DNA of 64,000 nt from assembly GCA_020072645.1 (NCBI GenBank), contig JAIQGK010000014.1, positions 62,001 through 126,000 of the forward strand, read 5' to 3'. The notes under the pieces were generated by a model, which saw only the letters and a list, made by a program, of their open reading frames with translations, was not told the DNA's origin and searched no databases. Both the position numbers and the translations under genes were made by a program. This DNA is from Terriglobia bacterium. GTDB taxonomy: Bacteria > Acidobacteriota > Terriglobia > Terriglobales > Acidobacteriaceae. Every line of letters begins with the position of its first letter. Position 1 is the stretch's first letter. This document shows, one piece after another, positions 4,524-51,863 of the stretch.

Positions 4524-6416
4524 ATGGACCCCATGGAAGCAACAAGGCCCGCACGGAACTTTGGCCCGCTGAACCCAGAAACTTTCTTTGCCGCGCAAAA
4601 GCGCAACCGCCGCGCCACGTGGCGCATGTCCGCGCTGTGCACGTTTGCCGCGTTCATCATGGGCATTCCGCTCACCCTGGTGCTTACGCCGCTGCTGTAT
4701 GCCATCACCATGGTGGCGCTGGAAACTCTCAACCATTTCTCGCCGCAGCCGGAGCTGCTGCTCTACTTCGATCATCTGGCCAAACTCGGGCTGCGCGTCG
4801 CCGACTACGTAATCAACCAGAGAGGCACACTCGATCCCGGTGAACTCACCAGCGGCCTTCTTTTAGTGCTGCTGCCGGGGATGGTCTTCGCCTATGGATT
4901 GTGGTTTGCCATGCTGGCGATGTTTCGCCATGGCGGCGTGGGCGGCACGCTGGCCAGCATGAACGCCCGCGAACCCAACCAGGCTGACTTGAAAGAGCTT
5001 CAGCTTGCGGATGTGGCGCAGGAAATGGCAATCGCCGCTGGATTGCCCGCGCCAAAAATCATGCTGGTGGATTCCAGCGGCGCCAACGCCGCGGCCGTCG
5101 GCACGTCACCGCACGACGCGCGCATCGTGATTTCACGCCGCCTGCTTGACGATCTTGATCGTGACCAGATGCAAGCCATCCTTGCGCACCTGGTGGGATC
5201 CATTGGCAACGGGGACCTGGGCATCGCGTTCACGGTAACCAGCGTCTTTGAAACCTGCGGCCTGCTGGTGACGTTGATCAACGCTCCGTTCAGCAAGGAA
5301 TCGCTCGGCCGCTTGTGGCGTGTGGCGCGTTACATGCTTGGCAGCGGCACACCGGAAAAACGTGCGGCGGACGCAGCGGAAATCGCCGAGTCGCTCGCCG
5401 GTTCGGTCGATGGCAACTCTCCTGAAATGGACAACTATTTCAAGCGGGGCAATCCTGGCCTGATCAAGAAAGCTTACCGCTTGGTAATGTTCCCGCTCAT
5501 GTTCACCAACATGGCCGTTGAGCTCACGCTCTGGTTTTTTCTTAACGTGCTGCTGGGACCGTGTATGGCCATGCTGTGGCGCACGCGCCGCTACCTGGCG
5601 GATGCAAGCTCGGTAGAACTCACGCGCAATCCAGACGCGCTGGCCCGTGCACTGCAATGCATGAGTGAAGACAACACGGCCTTTGACAGCGGCGACTGGG
5701 CCACACATCTTTTTGTGGTGAATCCCAAGGGCGACAGCGGTCTGCGCGGCCAGCAGCCCAGCCAGCAGCAAATGGCCAAAGCCATTCAAGCATGGGCGTC
5801 GACGGCACACATGATGTCAGCGCAAGATGCGGCAAACCTTTATGACGTGCCGGTTGCCACCGGTGGCGCTGCTCGAGTTACTCCAAATGATTGGCCCGGC
5901 GTGCGCCAGGAAATAATCACCACCGTAAAAGCCGCAGCCATGGGAGATCAGCGGGCCATGGCGCGCATGCAGGCCATCGCTGAAATGATGGGTGAACGGC
6001 TACCCGTTGGCCTTGGCGAGCTGCCCAATCTTGCGGACGTTCAGGCCGCCAGCCACGGAGACAAAGCTGCGATCGCGCGCTTGATGCAGGCGCAAAAAGG
6101 CAGACGGCAAGCCCAGCCAAAGCGCAGCCAAAGTGGATTGCAGATGCAGAGCTTTGTTTCGTTTCATCCACCGCTGGTGAAGCGCGCCAAGCGCTTGCAG
6201 AAAATGGGCTCGCACATGATCGCGCCGGTAAGAGCCGGCGGATGGGTGCTTACGGTCTTCATGACTTTGCTTTACGCGATCATTGTGCCGCTGCTTACCG
6301 TGGCCGGCGGGCTCATGCTGATTGTCATCGCCATGTTGATTGGCTTGAACCTGATGCTGCTCGGAGTGTGGTTAACCGCCATACATTGGTTCTTTGTCTG
6401 GTTGAATGGCAGGTGA
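4524..6416 (+). CDS. HtpX-like M48 membrane protein, zinc site lost
   Basis: This 630-residue protein shows M48 architecture: two N-terminal membrane helices (about 35-70 and 110-133), a cytoplasmic peptidase-like domain, another hydrophobic hairpin near 320-352, and a hydrophobic C-terminal pair. The HExxH helix that should read like AHELSHIRNRD is AHLVGSIGNGD (222-226), so the catalytic Glu and second His are gone. The later REYxADA metal ligand region is RRYLADA (355-361), again without Glu. The flanking framework (VELTRNPDALARAL) is well kept, so the protein is probably maintained as a pseudoprotease, perhaps a scaffold or adaptor in membrane quality control. An alternative start is ATG at 4533. 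Confidence 0.8.
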   Translation: MDPMEATRPARNFGPLNPETFFAAQKRNRRATWRMSALCTFAAFIMGIPLTLVLTPLLYAITMVALETLNHFSPQPELLLYFDHLAKLGLRVADYVINQRGTLDPGELTSGLLLVLLPGMVFAYGLWFAMLAMFRHGGVGGTLASMNAREPNQADLKELQLADVAQEMAIAAGLPAPKIMLVDSSGANAAAVGTSPHDARIVISRRLLDDLDRDQMQAILAHLVGSIGNGDLGIAFTVTSVFETCGLLVTLINAPFSKESLGRLWRVARYMLGSGTPEKRAADAAEIAESLAGSVDGNSPEMDNYFKRGNPGLIKKAYRLVMFPLMFTNMAVELTLWFFLNVLLGPCMAMLWRTRRYLADASSVELTRNPDALARALQCMSEDNTAFDSGDWATHLFVVNPKGDSGLRGQQPSQQQMAKAIQAWASTAHMMSAQDAANLYDVPVATGGAARVTPNDWPGVRQEIITTVKAAAMGDQRAMARMQAIAEMMGERLPVGLGELPNLADVQAASHGDKAAIARLMQAQKGRRQAQPKRSQSGLQMQSFVSFHPPLVKRAKRLQKMGSHMIAPVRAGGWVLTVFMTLLYAIIVPLLTVAGGLMLIVIAMLIGLNLMLLGVWLTAIHWFFVWLNGR

Positions 6417-6444
6417 AGGGCGGCGTTCGAACATCGCCGCCCTT
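6416..6444. terminator. Bidirectional hairpin between convergent genes
   Basis: Ten-base arms AAGGGCGGCG (6416-6425) and CGCCGCCCTT (6435-6444) pair perfectly. There is no strong T-run on either side, so the terminator role is inferred from its position between two convergent genes. Confidence 0.55.
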
Positions 6445-6467
6445 AAATGTTTACTCTCCCTGCGATT

Positions 6468-8132
6468 TCAGTGTTGTTCTGCACTGCGCGGTAACGGACG
6501 CGCTATTGAAAGCGGGTTTCGCGACTTTAGCTGCATCGGCGGCAGCGGAGCTGCAGCTTGCGCCTGTCCTACGAGCGGCTTTTGCGCGCAAATGATCTGT
6601 GTTCCGCATCCACCTGAGCAAGTGCAGGTGCTCGGGTCCCAGGAACCGCCATTATTAATGCAGGACTGTTGCTGGGTAGGATCGCAACTTGACCCGGATG
6701 AGCAGGTGCATGTTGACCAGTCCCAAATTCCGCCGCTGTTAATGCAGGATGCTTGTGCGTCAGGATTGGGGCAAGAACTTATGCTGGCGCAATTGGAATT
6801 GTCGTGGCTGGAAACGCCCAGACAAAACTGGCGATCGTTGCGATTAGCGATAGAGGAGCACTGCGTTGGATCGTGCAGTGACATTCCCAGGCACAGCGCT
6901 CGTGTGTCAGCATTTGGCAGGTTATTGCAGTTCGGCGGAGGATTGGTGTTGCCGCTGGAGGCACCATAACAAAATGCCTGCATTTGCGGATTACTGATGT
7001 CATTGCAGTTCGATGGGAAGTTAGGCGCAAACGCAATACCATAACAAGCGAGTTGCATGTTTCGGTCTGTCATCGAGGTGCATGGGCTCTGCGTGCTGTC
7101 GGAAACGGCGAAGCATGTTTGCTTATCGTTCACGTCGCTGATGTCATTGCAGTTGGAGGAAATTCTCCCGGCGATGCCATAACAAGCAAGAAACTGATCG
7201 CGCGGGCTGCGGTATTTAAATGGGTTTCCAGTAGATTCCATCGTGCATCCCCCACCGCCATCATTGAGCCAGTTTTGCTGAATAAGATAGTTGCGGCCAC
7301 CCAGAGAAATGTTTGCTTGTGCCCCGTTTGGTGTGGTGAAAGTGGCGCCAAACGTCAGATTGCATTGATCAGCATTCTCGCTGGGATTCGAGGGATTGAA
7401 CCACGCGTTTAAGTCAGGATCGGTAACTGTTTCACTCAGCTCGTGGGAAACCGTGCTGGCCATAAGGTCCGCCCCTACGTTTCCGTTTGGCCCTATCTGG
7501 GAATTTAATGGAGCGCAGGGTTTGGGTATGTTTGGGCTGTTAAGACACTTTGGAGCGGGGTTCCCCACATAGGCATATTTTATGTCATTGTTGAACATGC
7601 TCGAATGACCGTGGAAGCCACAGAAGTCAACGCAAAACTCGCCATGGGTCGAATCCTTCTCATTCACGTCACCCGAGGAAAGAACAAAGTAAACCCCGTT
7701 TGGATCAACCGGCACGGCGCCGCGCGACATCGCGCTCGAAATCACGGTACGCAAGCTTGTCTCTGAGAGCAGGCTCGATTGTGAGTAATTATCAAACGTC
7801 TGCGCGCCCAGGTTCACCGTCCCACCGGCATTGGTATGGCTGCTGTTCTCATATGTGGTATTAATTGCAAAGTACGGAGTTCCGTTCAGGTTGGAAATCA
7901 AGTTGGGCAATAACGTAAGCGCCGAATCGCCATTCCAGTTGCCATACCAGATGATGTAAATCGTATGAGGATTGGTCATTACCGGCCCGCCGTGGTAGCC
8001 GATCCCGTTTGCTGTGTCCTGAGCACCGCTGCTCAGGGCTGCTACAAGAAGAATAGCCGTTATCAATACCTGAGCACGCAAAGCGGACCTTCCATGATTT
8101 GCGAACACCATTTGTAACTTCGATCGGTTCAT
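6468..8132 (-). CDS. Secreted EXORDIUM-like protein with Cys-rich repeats
   Basis: This 554-residue protein has a signal sequence (hydrophobic stretch about 20-36). Its body opens with GIGYHGGPVMTNPHTIYIIWYGNW, matching the plant EXORDIUM/phosphate-induced PHI-1 family, here described from its two halves GIGYHGG and IYIIWYGNW. A conserved SHELSETVTDP segment (near 232) carries an HExxE-like motif. Residues about 305-465 are six Cys repeats of the form C-x2-[I/L/M]-x-N-x3-Q/R-x2-C-[F/Y/L]-x-[G/V], each about 24 residues. Two longer repeats ending in W-x-x-STCTC follow near the C-terminus. The start has GAGGAAAC upstream. Function in bacteria is unknown; an extracellular binding or structural role is likely. 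Confidence 0.75.
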   Translation of the reverse strand: MNRSKLQMVFANHGRSALRAQVLITAILLVAALSSGAQDTANGIGYHGGPVMTNPHTIYIIWYGNWNGDSALTLLPNLISNLNGTPYFAINTTYENSSHTNAGGTVNLGAQTFDNYSQSSLLSETSLRTVISSAMSRGAVPVDPNGVYFVLSSGDVNEKDSTHGEFCVDFCGFHGHSSMFNNDIKYAYVGNPAPKCLNSPNIPKPCAPLNSQIGPNGNVGADLMASTVSHELSETVTDPDLNAWFNPSNPSENADQCNLTFGATFTTPNGAQANISLGGRNYLIQQNWLNDGGGGCTMESTGNPFKYRSPRDQFLACYGIAGRISSNCNDISDVNDKQTCFAVSDSTQSPCTSMTDRNMQLACYGIAFAPNFPSNCNDISNPQMQAFCYGASSGNTNPPPNCNNLPNADTRALCLGMSLHDPTQCSSIANRNDRQFCLGVSSHDNSNCASISSCPNPDAQASCINSGGIWDWSTCTCSSGSSCDPTQQQSCINNGGSWDPSTCTCSGGCGTQIICAQKPLVGQAQAAAPLPPMQLKSRNPLSIARPLPRSAEQH

Positions 8133-47393: not shown

Positions 47394-48767
47394 ATGATGT
47401 CACCGCGTTTGATCTCTTTCGTCTTCTTAACCATATCTACAGCCCTGGCGGGCCAGGATTCGTCTTCGCCAGTAGCGCTTTCCACACGCTCCGCATCTAC
47501 GCCGGCGATTGCTTTGACGGTTGCCAGAAATACGCCTCTGCAAATCGTACTTGACCGTGAGGTGCGGATCAGGAAAGCCGGACAGCCGGTCCACGGCCGT
47601 TTGGTGCAGCCAGTCTATGCCTTTGACCGGCTGGTGGTGCCGGCAGGTACAGAAGTTGACGGCCACATCACAAGGGTTGGGGCCATCTCAAGAAAAAAGA
47701 GGGCGCTCGGCATCCTAAATGCCGACTTTACGCCCGAGCGCAAGGTTGAAGTTGAATTCGATCACTTCGTGATGGCGGAAGGCCGAACGATCCCGTTCAA
47801 GGCTGTAGTCACTCCGGGGTCGGGCCAGGTAATGCAGTTGGTAAGCACCAGCAACGACAAGAAGAACTCAGCCAAGGACTCAGTGTCAGAAAAAATCGAC
47901 CAGGCAAAACAGGAGGCGCGGCGGCAATGGCAGCAAGCCATCCAACAGATCAAGGAACCGGGCAAAGTGCACCGGTTGGAGCGATATGCGATCAGCCAGC
48001 TCCCGGCCCGCCCACAGTATTTAGACGCCGGAACCAGTTATTTTGCTGAATTGCAGGAACCGCTGGAATTTGGCAGCGAGCCGTTCACGCCGCAGATGGC
48101 CGCTTCAATCGGGACCGAAATCCCACAAGGCAGCTTGATCCACGCTTTGCTCATCACGCCGCTTGATTCGGCCACTACGCAGAAAGGCGCTGAGGTGGAA
48201 GCGGTCATGTCTCAACCTTTGTTTGACGGCGACCGGCTAATCCTGCCCGAAGGCAGCCGGATCAAAGGCGTGGTGCTGCAAGTGCGGCCCGCCGCCCGCC
48301 TGCATCACAACGGGCAGCTTCGGATTGCGTTTCGCCAGATTGTCCCGCCTGATGGAGTCGCGCAGAAGATAGTGGCCAGCGTGGAAAATGTCCAGGCCGG
48401 CAAGGATGCTCATGTAAAACTTGATCCGGAAGGCGGCGCGGAGGCTTCCACTCCCAAGACCAGGTATCTCTCAACCGGCCTTTCGCTCGCCCTGGCTGCC
48501 ACGTCGTTCCATCAAGACGAAGATGCGAACGATGCCGGGCAATCACAGCATGGCGTTGGTGGCGGCGCGGCCGGGTTCAAGCTGGTAGGCATCGCTCTTG
48601 GTCTGGTCGTGAAGTCTCAGGCCTTTGGCATGGCAATGGGGGCCTTTGGCGCCAGCCGGTCAGTCTACGTGCATTTCATCGCCCGGGGCCAGAATGTGGT
48701 GTTTCCACAAAACACTCTCATGGAGATAGGAATTGGCACGCACGGAAAAACCGTTCTTCAACCGTAA
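47394..48767 (+). CDS. Exported protein with TrbI/VirB10-like beta segments
   Basis: This 457-residue protein has a signal peptide (LISFVFLTISTALAGQ). Two similar beta segments, RLVVPAGTEVDGHITRVG and RLILPEGSRIKGVVLQV, resemble the barrel repeats of TrbI/VirB10. A helical charged region lies between (about 150-200), and a glycine-rich hydrophobic stretch near 390-425 could associate with a membrane. The protein is a larger relative in style of the glycine-zipper protein at 1607. There is no conjugation gene nearby, so transfer is unlikely; envelope function is inferred. Confidence 0.6.
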   Translation: MMSPRLISFVFLTISTALAGQDSSSPVALSTRSASTPAIALTVARNTPLQIVLDREVRIRKAGQPVHGRLVQPVYAFDRLVVPAGTEVDGHITRVGAISRKKRALGILNADFTPERKVEVEFDHFVMAEGRTIPFKAVVTPGSGQVMQLVSTSNDKKNSAKDSVSEKIDQAKQEARRQWQQAIQQIKEPGKVHRLERYAISQLPARPQYLDAGTSYFAELQEPLEFGSEPFTPQMAASIGTEIPQGSLIHALLITPLDSATTQKGAEVEAVMSQPLFDGDRLILPEGSRIKGVVLQVRPAARLHHNGQLRIAFRQIVPPDGVAQKIVASVENVQAGKDAHVKLDPEGGAEASTPKTRYLSTGLSLALAATSFHQDEDANDAGQSQHGVGGGAAGFKLVGIALGLVVKSQAFGMAMGAFGASRSVYVHFIARGQNVVFPQNTLMEIGIGTHGKTVLQP

Positions 48768-48796: not shown

Positions 48797-50896
48797 CTAC
48801 ACGAGTGCGATGAGGCGCTGCTGGCGCAGGATCTCAATCCCCGCCAGACATGCCTTGTTTGCCGGGACGCCCGGAATTTCGATGTTGCGCAGCAGGAATT
48901 CTCCAGTAATCTCCTGAACCGTGAAACCATCTTCACAGAGGTCCAGCAATTCTGCGGAGAGCGGGGTGAGTTGTCGAACTTCCGCCGGCCCGCCCGAAGT
49001 CCTGCGGATGGCGAGCTTCACCGGCTTACTGGGTACGTCATGCAACGGGCTTCTTTGCCGCAGACGGCGAACAATCTCATAATAGTCAGCCGGTAGCTTG
49101 ATGACCTTTACTCCCGGAAGCAAACGCAGGCGGCTCTCCGGGGAAAGCAGGTTCTCGTTGTCATAGGAGAGTTTGTCATCGGCTTGTTGCCCGGTATTTT
49201 GACGCGCGCCGCTCGCTTCATGCTCCGACTCGTGAACGCCAGCAAGCAAGGCCGCTTCGTATTCCGCCAGCGCAGTGATTGCAAGGGGCGCTTTGCTTAC
49301 CGGGATGTAGTGCAGCCGCACAAAGCCAAGAAAGTCCGCCGGGAATTGGGGTTGCGCGTAGTAGGCGGTGCGGTCGCCATTGGAAAAATGTGTTCCGTTC
49401 TTCGTCCGCCACGCCTGCCATTGCTGAAATACGTCCACTATGTCGCCGCTATCCTGATGGAGCCCCAGGAGCAGCTTGCGAAATGCCCTCATGCCATTCA
49501 GGAGAAAGTCGCGCAGCTCCTTCAGAAATTCGCGGTCAAGGTGCGGCAGAGGCGCGGAGTAAAAGCTGGAGAAAATTTCAGGATGCGCGGCGATCATCGC
49601 ATGATCTTCAATCTCCTGCCGCCAGCCGCGATAGGACATATCGGCAACATCGTCGTTGAGTTGCAGCGCATCTTTGTGCTGCGTGGTGATGGGCGTAGCG
49701 GCCAGCGGCGCCAGGATGCTGAGTTGCGGATCGGCATGGTCATAGCGCAGTGAGTCAACAAAGAACGCAGCGGTATCGCGCAGGTCATTCATGGTCTCAT
49801 CGGGGAAGCCCGCCATCAATGAGACCGCGGTATTAATCTTGAATTTGTCGCAAGAGCGGACGCGTTCCGCGGAATCGTTTAGCTCAAGGCCCTTGTCGAT
49901 AATCTTCTGCATGCGCCGCGAGCCAGTCTCAATGCCGAAGAAGATGCCGCGGCAACCGGCTTTCGACATGAGCTCGATCAGTTCTTCGTCAACGCAGTCT
50001 GTGCGCGCGCTGCAGCCCCATATGAATGTGTCTTCCGGGTCCTTACGCTTGGCCTCCAACAGGGCCTCACAAAATGCCACAACGCGTTTGCGGTCCACGG
50101 TGAACATGTCATGCACCAGCTCAAACGAGTTGACGCCGTATGTCTGCCTGACGCGGCGCATGTCGGCAATCATCTGCGCCGGGCTCTTCAGCCGGAAATT
50201 GCGGCGGAAAAAATCGTTGGTCGAACAGAACGTGCAGGAAAACGGACAGCCGCGCCCCAACTCCAACGGAAAGTGGCGGCAGTGGCGAACGTCTGGAAAT
50301 AGATGAAAAGCGGGAAATGGCAGGGCGTCCAGGTCCGCGATCAGGGGCGCAGCCGGGTTGCGCACGATTTCTTTGTGCTGGCGAAAGGTGATGCCAGGGA
50401 CCGCGGCAATAGAACCATCTCCATCCAGAGCATTCACCAACTCGGGCAGGGATTGCTCCGCTTCACCGCGCACGACCAGATCAATGAAGGGATAGGCGCG
50501 CATGGTTGCGATATCGACGACCGACGCCTGGGGGCCGCCGAGCACAACCACTGACTGCGGATGCGTTCGCTTGACCTCAGCGGCGATGCGCAGCGTGAGC
50601 GGGTAGCTGCTGCAAACCGTGCTGAAACCGAAAAAATCGAAATCGCGTGCGGAGAAATAATCTCCGGCAAAGCCGCAAAAATCGGCGTTGTCGCGGTTCG
50701 AATCCCGGAGCCACTCGTAGTAAACGCGATTGAGGTCTACAACTTGAGGCTGCAAGCCTTTGGCTTCCAGCACGGCGGCAAGGCTCAGGATGCCGACAGG
50801 CGCAAGCTCGCCCATGATGCGGGCTGCTTCTGTTTCGTCCACGGCACAGCGATCGAACTGGTTGGCTGTGGGAGCACTGATGAGACAAACCTTCAT
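48797..50896 (-). CDS. B12-binding radical SAM enzyme with PqqD-like C-terminus
   Basis: This 699-residue enzyme has three visible parts. Residues about 1-165 form a cobalamin-binding Rossmann domain (LAPVGILSLAAVLEAKG, VVVLGGPQAS, DLVVRGEAEQSLPEL). Residues about 205-450 form a radical SAM barrel with cluster motif CPFSCTFC (Cys217, 221, 224). Residues about 625-699 resemble PqqD/RRE peptide-binding domains (LTPLSAELLDLCEDGFTVQEI, then EILRQQRLIAL). This order is typical of peptide-modifying C-methyltransferases and related RiPP enzymes. Two short paralogous peptide genes lie directly upstream on the same strand and are the likely substrates. No transporter or protease gene is adjacent. Confidence 0.85.
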   Translation of the reverse strand: MKVCLISAPTANQFDRCAVDETEAARIMGELAPVGILSLAAVLEAKGLQPQVVDLNRVYYEWLRDSNRDNADFCGFAGDYFSARDFDFFGFSTVCSSYPLTLRIAAEVKRTHPQSVVVLGGPQASVVDIATMRAYPFIDLVVRGEAEQSLPELVNALDGDGSIAAVPGITFRQHKEIVRNPAAPLIADLDALPFPAFHLFPDVRHCRHFPLELGRGCPFSCTFCSTNDFFRRNFRLKSPAQMIADMRRVRQTYGVNSFELVHDMFTVDRKRVVAFCEALLEAKRKDPEDTFIWGCSARTDCVDEELIELMSKAGCRGIFFGIETGSRRMQKIIDKGLELNDSAERVRSCDKFKINTAVSLMAGFPDETMNDLRDTAAFFVDSLRYDHADPQLSILAPLAATPITTQHKDALQLNDDVADMSYRGWRQEIEDHAMIAAHPEIFSSFYSAPLPHLDREFLKELRDFLLNGMRAFRKLLLGLHQDSGDIVDVFQQWQAWRTKNGTHFSNGDRTAYYAQPQFPADFLGFVRLHYIPVSKAPLAITALAEYEAALLAGVHESEHEASGARQNTGQQADDKLSYDNENLLSPESRLRLLPGVKVIKLPADYYEIVRRLRQRSPLHDVPSKPVKLAIRRTSGGPAEVRQLTPLSAELLDLCEDGFTVQEITGEFLLRNIEIPGVPANKACLAGIEILRQQRLIALV

Positions 50897-50928
50897 GGGT
50901 CACTTATTTGGATTGAGCATGAACAATA

Positions 50929-50959
50929 AGCGGGTCAATTTCGATCGAACTGACCCGCT
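50929..50959 (-). other. Hairpin between peptide gene and radical SAM gene
   Basis: AGCGGGTCA (50929-50937) and TGACCCGCT (50951-50959) pair perfectly with a 13-base loop and no T-run. In precursor-enzyme operons such hairpins often make the precursor mRNA more abundant than the enzyme mRNA; that role is inferred here. Confidence 0.6.
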
Positions 50960-51042
50960 CTCAAGCATTAATATCTAACGATTCACTTGCGAATGGCACA
51001 CCACAGGCTAACCGGACACAGCCTCGGTGAGGCGCGGGCCGA

Positions 51043-51348
51043 TCAGGCCTGGGTTGGGTCAGTAGGGACATCGCACCCCATGTGGGTGACCAACGTATTC
51101 TCAAATGCTCTCCTGAGCTCTATAACCTGTGCCTCGGTCAATCCCAGTTCAGGAACTGTGCGTGCAGCCTCCTGCAGCTGATTGGCCATGTGTCTTGCGA
51201 GAACTCTGGCCCATTCTCTTTCCGAAATGACGGCGTTTTGGGGCACAGCAGCGACGCCACCGAGGATAGACGCTCCTCCTAGTGCAAGCGCGCCACGCAT
51301 CACAGTTCGACGATCAAACCCTTTCTGTTCATCTTTGGGTTCTGACAT
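51043..51348 (-). CDS. Candidate precursor peptide 1 with twin-arginine signal
   Basis: This 101-residue protein starts with a twin-arginine signal (FDRRTVMRGALALGGASILG). A 57-residue domain follows that is 32 of 52 aligned residues identical to the next peptide: EWAR-LAR--ANQL-EA-R, then AFENTLVTHMGCDV near the end. The conserved helix-plus-tail shape, single Cys and short variable C-terminus (PTDPTQA) suit a RiPP precursor. Twin-arginine export of folded cargo would allow modification in the cytoplasm first. AGGAG precedes the ATG. It could instead be a small cofactor-carrying subunit. Confidence 0.7.
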   Translation of the reverse strand: MSEPKDEQKGFDRRTVMRGALALGGASILGGVAAVPQNAVISEREWARVLARHMANQLQEAARTVPELGLTEAQVIELRRAFENTLVTHMGCDVPTDPTQA

Positions 51349-51535
51349 TTACGTCTCTCCTGAGCAAAATTTTTGGCCACGGAACCGGATCCTTGCAATT
51401 ACCGGCTGTCAAACCGGAATGAAGGACACTGACGTTTATCTCTTCAAACTTTCATGGGGTGTCACTGATCTGGGGCTGAATGATGTTGATCCACCACAGG
51501 CCAGCTATTCCCGGCCCTTGATCTACCGCGACCAC

Positions 51536-51724
51536 TCAAGGGGTAGCAACTTCGCAACCCATGTTGGTGACCAACGTATTCTCAAATGCCTTCTGTAGCA
51601 CAGCAACCTGGTCGGCGTTCAATTGGATATCACCAACTTGTCTTACAGCTTCCGGTAGTTGGTTGGCTACGAATCTTGCCAGGGCCCTTGCCCACTCTTG
51701 CTCTACGGGGATGACATCCTGCAT
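51536..51724 (-). CDS. Candidate precursor peptide 2
   Basis: This 62-residue peptide is a shorter paralogue of the next gene without any export signal: VEQEWARALARFVANQLPEA, QVAVLQKAFENTLVTNMG, ending CEVATP. The block FENTLVTxMGC(D/E)V is the best conserved part of the pair and may be the modified core, with the N-terminal helix as leader. ATG at 51724 has GGAGG six bases upstream and is preferred to the ATG seven codons earlier. It is the first gene of the peptide-peptide-radical SAM unit. Confidence 0.7.
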   Translation of the reverse strand: MQDVIPVEQEWARALARFVANQLPEAVRQVGDIQLNADQVAVLQKAFENTLVTNMGCEVATP

Positions 51725-51767
51725 GTCGTTCCTCCAGTTCATCAAAAGTCTGAAAACACAGGAGGGG

Positions 51768-51863
51768 AGTATATACCCGATCTGGATGCACCCTTCTAGG
51801 TTTTAACGTGAATAATTGCTGATTTTATGAAGATTTTTAGCGTCAATAGTTGCCGATTTTATG
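51768..51863 (-). promoter_or_regulatory. Promoter and direct repeat of peptide-radical SAM operon
   Basis: On the minus strand TATACT (51773-51768) is a good -10 placed 43 bases before the peptide 2 start; no good -35 is seen. Upstream lie two 29-base direct copies, 51801-51829 and 51835-51863, identical at 25 of 29 positions (both ending GATTTTATG on the plus strand), with a 34-base period. This looks like a tandem activator site for a promoter that needs help. Confidence 0.6.

Follow-up and report, generated by a model that had tools for sequence, protein, structure and literature searches.

Two paralogous small peptides encoded beside a B12-dependent radical SAM enzyme in a Terriglobia genome: a candidate minimal peptide-modifying operon

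The genes at the locus

The window, which is the whole stretch of DNA analysed here, comprises 64,000 nucleotides of a Terriglobia bacterium (assembly GCA_020072645.1, contig JAIQGK010000014.1, positions 62,001 to 126,000), and the system described below consists of two small peptide genes and the gene of a B12-dependent radical SAM (S-adenosylmethionine) enzyme, all on its minus strand and transcribed in the order peptide 2, peptide 1, enzyme. Judged from the nearest relatives with a name, which are Terriglobia and presumably include Candidatus Angelobacter (G106, of the same genus, yields the locus also seen as L008), the genome is acidobacterial. An earlier note on this DNA, made from the letters alone, had reported three same-strand genes of 62, 101 and 699 amino acids at these positions, and all three are confirmed:

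51724-51536, minus strand: peptide 2, 62 amino acids from its ATG, a short-form precursor candidate without a signal
51348-51043, minus strand: peptide 1, 101 amino acids, a long-form precursor candidate
50896-48797, minus strand: B12-dependent radical SAM enzyme, 699 amino acids

Ribosome-binding-like sequences are found ahead of the ATG of both peptide genes, CTGGAGGAACGAC for peptide 2 and CAGGAGAG for peptide 1, and the mechanical open reading frame (ORF) of peptide 2 begins at a TTG located 21 nucleotides before its ATG. When aligned, the two peptides are identical in 34 of 60 columns, with a local score of 167, the best of 2,000 shuffles scoring 55, and on this comparison they are real paralogues; the likeness claimed earlier therefore stands, while its count of 32 identities in 52 residues is replaced. 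Compared with a genome of the same genus (G050), peptide 2 has a ratio of nonsynonymous to synonymous substitution rates (dN/dS) of 0.33 and peptide 1 one of 0.37, and over the eight peptide pairs computed the values run from 0.12 to 0.55; judged by these ratios, both peptide genes are under purifying selection. Pooled over the 21 pairs that the seven long forms make, the ratio of nonsynonymous to synonymous differences (pN/pS) is 0.56 in the N-terminal part and 0.36 in the remainder, so that the N-terminal part is the more variable one, in the manner of signal sequences.

No Pfam or NCBIfam family names either peptide, in line with the earlier remark that the precursor family was not a recognised one, and neither peptide has an NHLP or Nif11 match in these collections at E values up to 1. 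The cysteine of the MGC motif shared by both peptides is not universal, since MGE is found in G106 and HLGG in the Bradyrhizobium peptides described below; as far as the peptide sequences tell, chemistry confined to cysteine is thus unlikely as the common reaction of the family.

The enzyme and its C-terminal module

The enzyme comprises two catalytic domains and a C-terminal module that includes a RiPP recognition element (RRE), RiPP standing for ribosomally synthesized and post-translationally modified peptide:

50438-50821, minus strand: B12-binding domain, residues 26-153 (PF02310, 44.7 bits; cut-off 32.1)
49763-50263, minus strand: radical SAM domain, residues 212-378 (PF04055, 68.6 bits; cut-off 29.5)
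48800-49615, minus strand: putative peptide-binding module resembling ApyI, HvfC and TglI, residues 428-699
48800-49147, minus strand: RRE (PqqD-like) part of this module, from hhalign, the PqqD model and Foldseek

Both catalytic domains pass their Pfam cut-offs, and the cluster motif CxxxCxxC is present as CPFSCTFC at residues 217-224, its three cysteines being invariant in an alignment of 16 enzymes, so that the cobalamin domain and the motif had been correctly read before. The best NCBIfam match is ApyD (NF050148), with 338 bits, and all 16 aligned enzymes match this model at E values of 1e-20 or better. In a fold search, the predicted model of the whole enzyme (pLDDT, predicted local distance difference test, 83) resembles TsrM, CysS, OxsB, MgmA, AprD4 and TokK, a list in which methyltransferases are prominent (TsrM, CysS, MgmA and TokK). 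This list also contains TglHI and NGO1945, a first hint that the tail of the enzyme is more than a PqqD look-alike.

In the model of the last 272 residues folded alone (pLDDT 83), the RRE fold is present: a sheet of three strands leads into three helices, and one additional strand and helix are inserted within it. The top three Foldseek matches of this module are TglHI (E 4.7e-6), TglHI again (E 2.3e-5) and NGO1945 (E 6.2e-5), chain A of the TglHI entries being presumably TglI, judged from its 268-269 residues. PqqD and leader-bound lasso B1 proteins are matched at E values of 0.1 and above, with target-normalised template-modelling scores (TM) of 0.63-0.75, and TbiB1 is among the matches. Among sister modules, the ApyI model matches eight of 15 (best E 4e-11) and the HvfC model likewise eight of 15 (best E 6e-8), both at E values up to 1, while the module of the window itself matches HvfC alone (E 0.0047); DUF2063 (PF09836) is absent from the families matched by the 15 members at the same threshold. 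The PqqD model gives 13.2 bits on the window enzyme, under its cut-off of 23.4, and matches eight of 12 sisters at E values up to 1, none of them decisive alone. In hhalign comparisons, a profile built from the RRE parts of 12 sisters reached 95.8% against a set of 13 PqqD domains and 36% against a set of 16 HvfC-like proteins, the latter set coming from 16 of 20 loci whose matches were themselves under the HvfC cut-off (none of 149 genomes being over it).

Given the PqqD profile, the Foldseek matches and those of ApyI and HvfC, a mere resemblance of the tail to PqqD is unlikely. The C-terminus described as PqqD-like in the earlier note is indeed RRE-like by structure prediction, the check suggested there, and by Foldseek, but it is ApyI/HvfC-like and not PqqD-like only. 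From the fold and the matches of the sister sequences, the protein can be read as an ApyD-like B12 enzyme to which an ApyI/HvfC-like recognition module is attached.

Co-occurrence of peptide and enzyme

Peptides and enzyme were searched for in 300 genomes of the family, where the enzyme subfamily is present in 14 and a peptide match in nine. Eight of these nine genomes are among the 14, and in each of them the peptide adjoins the enzyme on the same contig; the ninth match (G088; 36% over 39 residues, E 0.0026), from a genome with no enzyme at threshold, is probably due to chance. In 392 genomes of the phylum, a peptide profile, which is blind to the unlike peptides of other lineages, found matches in five: the genome of the window, one of its genus, and three with weak matches (E 0.007-0.01) that sit inside open frames of 587-816 codons. 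No orphan peptide gene was found in this search, which in some genomes scored 15 of its candidates. Apart from the weak ninth match, peptides lacking a radical SAM neighbour, which would have counted against the earlier claim if widespread, were thus not found in the family and phylum genomes searched, and a widespread peptide unrelated to the enzyme is unsupported by these searches.

Some enzyme match at an E value of 1e-40 is present in 181 of 396 phylum genomes, of which five exceed 800 bits and the next reach 492, 394 and 371, and this gap separates the subfamily from B12 radical SAM enzymes in general. The enzyme was also found in four of the 146 Bradyrhizobium-group genomes searched. At an E value of 1e-80, the 17 genomes holding 17 of the loci have one enzyme match each, and no match was found on plasmids. 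The enzyme family extends over Acidobacteriota and some alphaproteobacteria, a breadth that had been missed before.

Upstream peptides in other lineages

In the relatives of the window, an orthologue of peptide 1 lies directly upstream of the enzyme. Over all 29 enzyme loci, a small ORF was sought by a rule requiring an ATG, a length of 50-160 amino acids, a ribosome-site-like word and an end within 350 nucleotides upstream of the enzyme, and it was found at 28, against 3.1 expected from dinucleotide shuffles of the same regions. Chance small ORFs are ruled out by this excess together with the purifying selection reported above. Some of the 29 loci are near copies of one another (L082-L084 and L005/L023, for example, or the window with L003 and L075), the enzyme copies of L004 and L007 are split over two open frames, and that of L008 is cut by a contig end. 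L014 is the one locus failing the rule, and a similar-looking peptide reading frame can be seen there by eye. At L018 the distance was taken from an enzyme fragment (a 116-codon frame), the full enzyme starting about 0.7 kb further on; this locus shows an apparent partial duplication (5753-6640), in which a peptide and the enzyme fragment are followed by another peptide of similar look, itself immediately ahead of the full enzyme.

The upstream ORFs are mostly unlike the window peptides in sequence. An iterative hidden Markov model search of 6,579 ORFs from 28 loci gathered 16, all of them upstream of an enzyme, and linked the peptides of the window's clade, Bradyrhizobium and Natronohydrobacter; homology of all upstream peptides was rejected, as nothing beyond these three groups was gathered. 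The peptides of other lineages have in common, at most, an architecture that is apparent by eye, in which a hydrophobic strand is followed by a helix often starting with L-T/S and often by a second Val/Ile-rich strand. Near their end, ahead of a short tail, four Bradyrhizobium peptides (L005, L006, L012 and L023) carry the valine run RRRIVVVVVVVIVF, which stands out as a candidate site of repeated C-methylation, and the Natronohydrobacter peptide has VSVIVTVVIVF at its C-terminal end. In a tree of the 29 enzymes, the window's clade forms one group (support 100/100), the poly-valine group needs one change, with weak support (34/69), and the placement of three distant, long-branched rows is unsure.

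This diversity bears on the possibility that the enzyme, like BchE or HpnJ, has a small molecule as its substrate, and that the small proteins serve it as accessory subunits or regulators. The models of these two enzymes do match the window enzyme (140 and 131 bits, respectively), and the peptides of the relatives resemble, by eye, small beta-alpha-beta proteins. Nevertheless, ApyD matches far better, with 338 bits, the enzyme has an RRE-like module, and an upstream peptide that differs between lineages beyond detection while standing beside one type of enzyme fits substrates better than subunits, which makes such a role quite improbable.

A second, more distant B12 radical SAM relative with an upstream peptide is located at L088 (reverse strand, offset 742-2563), and the peptide before this second enzyme looks like an NHLP-type RiPP precursor.

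The Tat-like signal of peptide 1

The N-terminus of peptide 1 carries a feature that the earlier note had missed, and that is likely, from its sequence, to be a signal for the twin-arginine translocation (Tat) pathway:

51238-51321, minus strand: Tat-like signal of peptide 1, approximately residues 10-37, with twin arginine and a hydrophobic Gly/Ala stretch

All seven long forms, including that of the window, contain DRR and then a hydrophobic Gly/Ala stretch ahead of the conserved EWAR region, and the genome encodes TatC. The TIGR01409 model (cut-off 16.7) gives 12.5 bits for the window, 15.9 for G050 and 12.8 for L007, with no match for the other four, and the Pfam TAT_signal model gives 13.6 bits on the window peptide against a cut-off of 22.7. 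Because the Tat pathway moves folded proteins, a Tat signal would solve the problem of early export. This problem is described for MNIO enzymes (multinuclear non-heme iron-dependent oxidative enzymes), whose DUF2063-plus-RRE partners go with signal-bearing precursors and whose precursors must be kept from early export (PMC12452194). According to the same source, bacterial RiPP precursors rarely bear export signals (PMC12452194), and our literature searches, made in open-licence papers, found no Tat-signalled RiPP precursor.

The likeness of the C-terminal module to TglI raises another explanation, in which the peptides are scaffolds or carriers for the building of a small molecule, as TglA is with 3-thiaglutamate, and not themselves the product. 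TglA, the substrate of TglI, is described as such a scaffold (PMC9016710), and the window peptides are conserved to their end, as would suit this role. On the other hand, the Tat-like signal fits export of the peptide itself, and no PEARL/LanB-like ligase was recognised among 13 neighbouring proteins scanned with Pfam (a subset of the ORFs between about 39.7 and 63.1 kb of the window), and we hold a scaffold function to be quite unlikely.

Proposed function

We consider it probable that the locus is a minimal RiPP-like operon, in which the peptides are precursors, the RRE binds them, the B12-radical centre modifies them, and Tat exports peptide 1. Peptides 1 and 2 would both be ribosomal precursors held by the C-terminal RRE module, probably through strand addition along ...V[RP]D[IVL]xL[TN]... 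and the helix that follows, and their C-terminal part, around FENTLVTNMGC and beyond, would be fed to the B12/radical SAM centre, which would most likely C-methylate an unactivated carbon there. Peptide 1 would then be exported through Tat, with cleavage by signal peptidase, while peptide 2 may remain inside, travel with peptide 1 or serve as an alternative substrate. C-methylation is the best guess because ApyD, an RRE-containing B12 enzyme, is described as methylating the C-beta of a Tyr in its precursor peptide (PMC10635010), and because methyltransferases are prominent among the structural neighbours of the enzyme.

The main chemical rival accepts the peptides as substrates and supposes a C-C or other cross-link, like that made by PbsB, rather than methylation. 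A cross-linking RiPP B12 enzyme has been described, PbsB acting between ortho-tyrosines (PMC12257519), and the enzyme subfamily found here is not ApyD by the cut-off of that model. Nevertheless, the window peptides have, by reading, one conserved Phe and no aromatic pair near the C-terminus, and several of the nearest structures are methyltransferases, so that we regard cross-linking as unlikely.

Sequences and models show the genes and the selection acting on them, the domains of the enzyme, its RRE-like module and the co-occurrence of peptide and enzyme, whereas peptide binding, modification and its chemistry, and Tat export are what we infer. Several points weigh against the proposed RiPP-like operon. 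The C-terminus of the window peptides is conserved like the remainder, unlike a classical variable core. B12 radical SAM enzymes can also cross-link, as PbsB does, or act on small molecules, and the window enzyme does not reach the ApyD cut-off of 750 bits, the profile match covering positions 26-445 of 645 and stopping there. The superposition of the module on TglHI and NGO1945 is loose (root-mean-square deviation 10-11, TM 0.41-0.56), and proteins from outside RiPP pathways, NO66 (a histone demethylase) and GdmN (a carbamoyltransferase) among others, reach Foldseek scores similar to those of PqqD. Moreover, all scores of the two Tat models are under their cut-offs, no MNIO, P450, LanB-like enzyme or transporter was recognised among the 13 neighbouring proteins scanned, and five of the 13 match no family well.

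A broader proposal, put forward here only tentatively, is that these systems form a new RiPP class, in which B12 radical SAM enzymes that have absorbed a module of the MNIO-partner type modify small beta-alpha(-beta) peptides. The peptides of the window's clade would be exported by Tat, so that export can wait for modification, the Bradyrhizobium enzymes would methylate the poly-valine strand RRRIVVVVVVVIVF, and many Acidobacteria would have a kinase with sensor-like repeats in the same operon.

Relation to known systems

Among described systems, PbsB of the biphenomycin type is likewise a B12 radical SAM enzyme with a RiPP precursor as its substrate, but it belongs to a multi-enzyme cluster with FHAFRF-type precursors and cross-links aromatic residues (PMC12257519). 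Bufferins and oxazolins are alike in that an export signal replaces the leader and the partner protein is of the DUF2063-plus-RRE type (PMC12452194); theirs are Sec signals and MNIO enzymes, whereas a Tat-like signal and a B12 radical SAM enzyme are found here. ApyD, which acts with ApyI in the aminopyruvatide system, is the nearest known enzyme by NCBIfam match and also combines B12 radical SAM chemistry with an RRE on a precursor peptide (PMC10635010). In contrast to ApyD itself, the window enzyme scores 338 bits rather than 750, with a match ending at 445 of 645, no MNIO or P450 is found among the 13 scanned neighbours, the precursor is a different one, and the ApyI/HvfC-like module forms part of the enzyme.

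TglI, HvfC and NGO1945, which are MNIO partners with DUF2063 plus RRE, are alike as the best fold matches of the 272-residue C-terminal module, but they work with MNIO enzymes, whereas the module is here fused to a B12 radical SAM enzyme and its 15 members do not match DUF2063 at E values up to 1. In proteusins such as polytheonamide, valine-rich cores are C-methylated by radical SAM enzymes, which the Bradyrhizobium relatives would parallel; unlike proteusins, the peptides scanned here have no NHLP or Nif11 match.

No description of this peptide-enzyme family was found in the titles and abstract openings that our searches of open-licence papers listed, and it appears to be a family of modified peptides not described before, with related enzymes elsewhere having different small peptides adjacent to them. 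If the proposed function is true, it adds a two-component RiPP family, made of a precursor and one enzyme, in Acidobacteriota and some alphaproteobacteria, with one enzyme uniting two modules that are described as individual proteins for the apy cluster, and with possibly the first RiPP precursor exported by Tat. Single-enzyme systems with diverse peptides would also be convenient for exploring the range of targets that B12 enzymes can methylate.

Neighbouring genes and other features

A kinase-family gene, called as a Ser/Thr kinase, is located directly upstream of the peptide gene and on the same strand at 13 of the 29 loci (L009, L010, L011, L013, L016, L017, L018, L020, L021 and L082-L085), while none was found in the window's clade; in the enzyme tree, these loci need two changes. 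Ten of the 13 kinases were scanned, and the protein kinase domain is over cut-off in all ten, the C-terminal parts containing PD40 propeller repeats in eight and TPR repeats in two (L009 and L011). The ten genomes checked encode 3 to 56 kinases each (E 1e-10), two of them only 3 and 5; kinases are thus common in several genomes, and the adjacency is less striking where they are many. Other recurrent neighbours are common to 2 to 5 of the 29 loci, mostly near relatives. An ABC-ATPase-like ORF seen at four Bradyrhizobium loci and L075 is probably there by chance, as it lies several kb off in differing surroundings.

One further feature lies between the genes of peptide 1 and the enzyme:

50928-50960, minus strand: hairpin of 13 pairs, a possible attenuator

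This hairpin could set the ratio of peptide to enzyme, and G050 shows a similar-looking one. A scan for terminator-like elements found one against 1.2 in shuffles, a number not above chance. A conserved RNA hairpin behind peptide 1 is unsupported, given that in six sequences one of 13 pairs is changed on both sides and the covariation term is positive, which is unfavourable.

From the 13 scanned neighbours, the system appears minimal. They include a transglutaminase-like protein at 39.7-40.7 kb, about 8 kb from the locus. Convergent with the enzyme gene, a 457-amino-acid protein is encoded on the plus strand at 47394-48767, with a TrbI-like match just over the cut-off.

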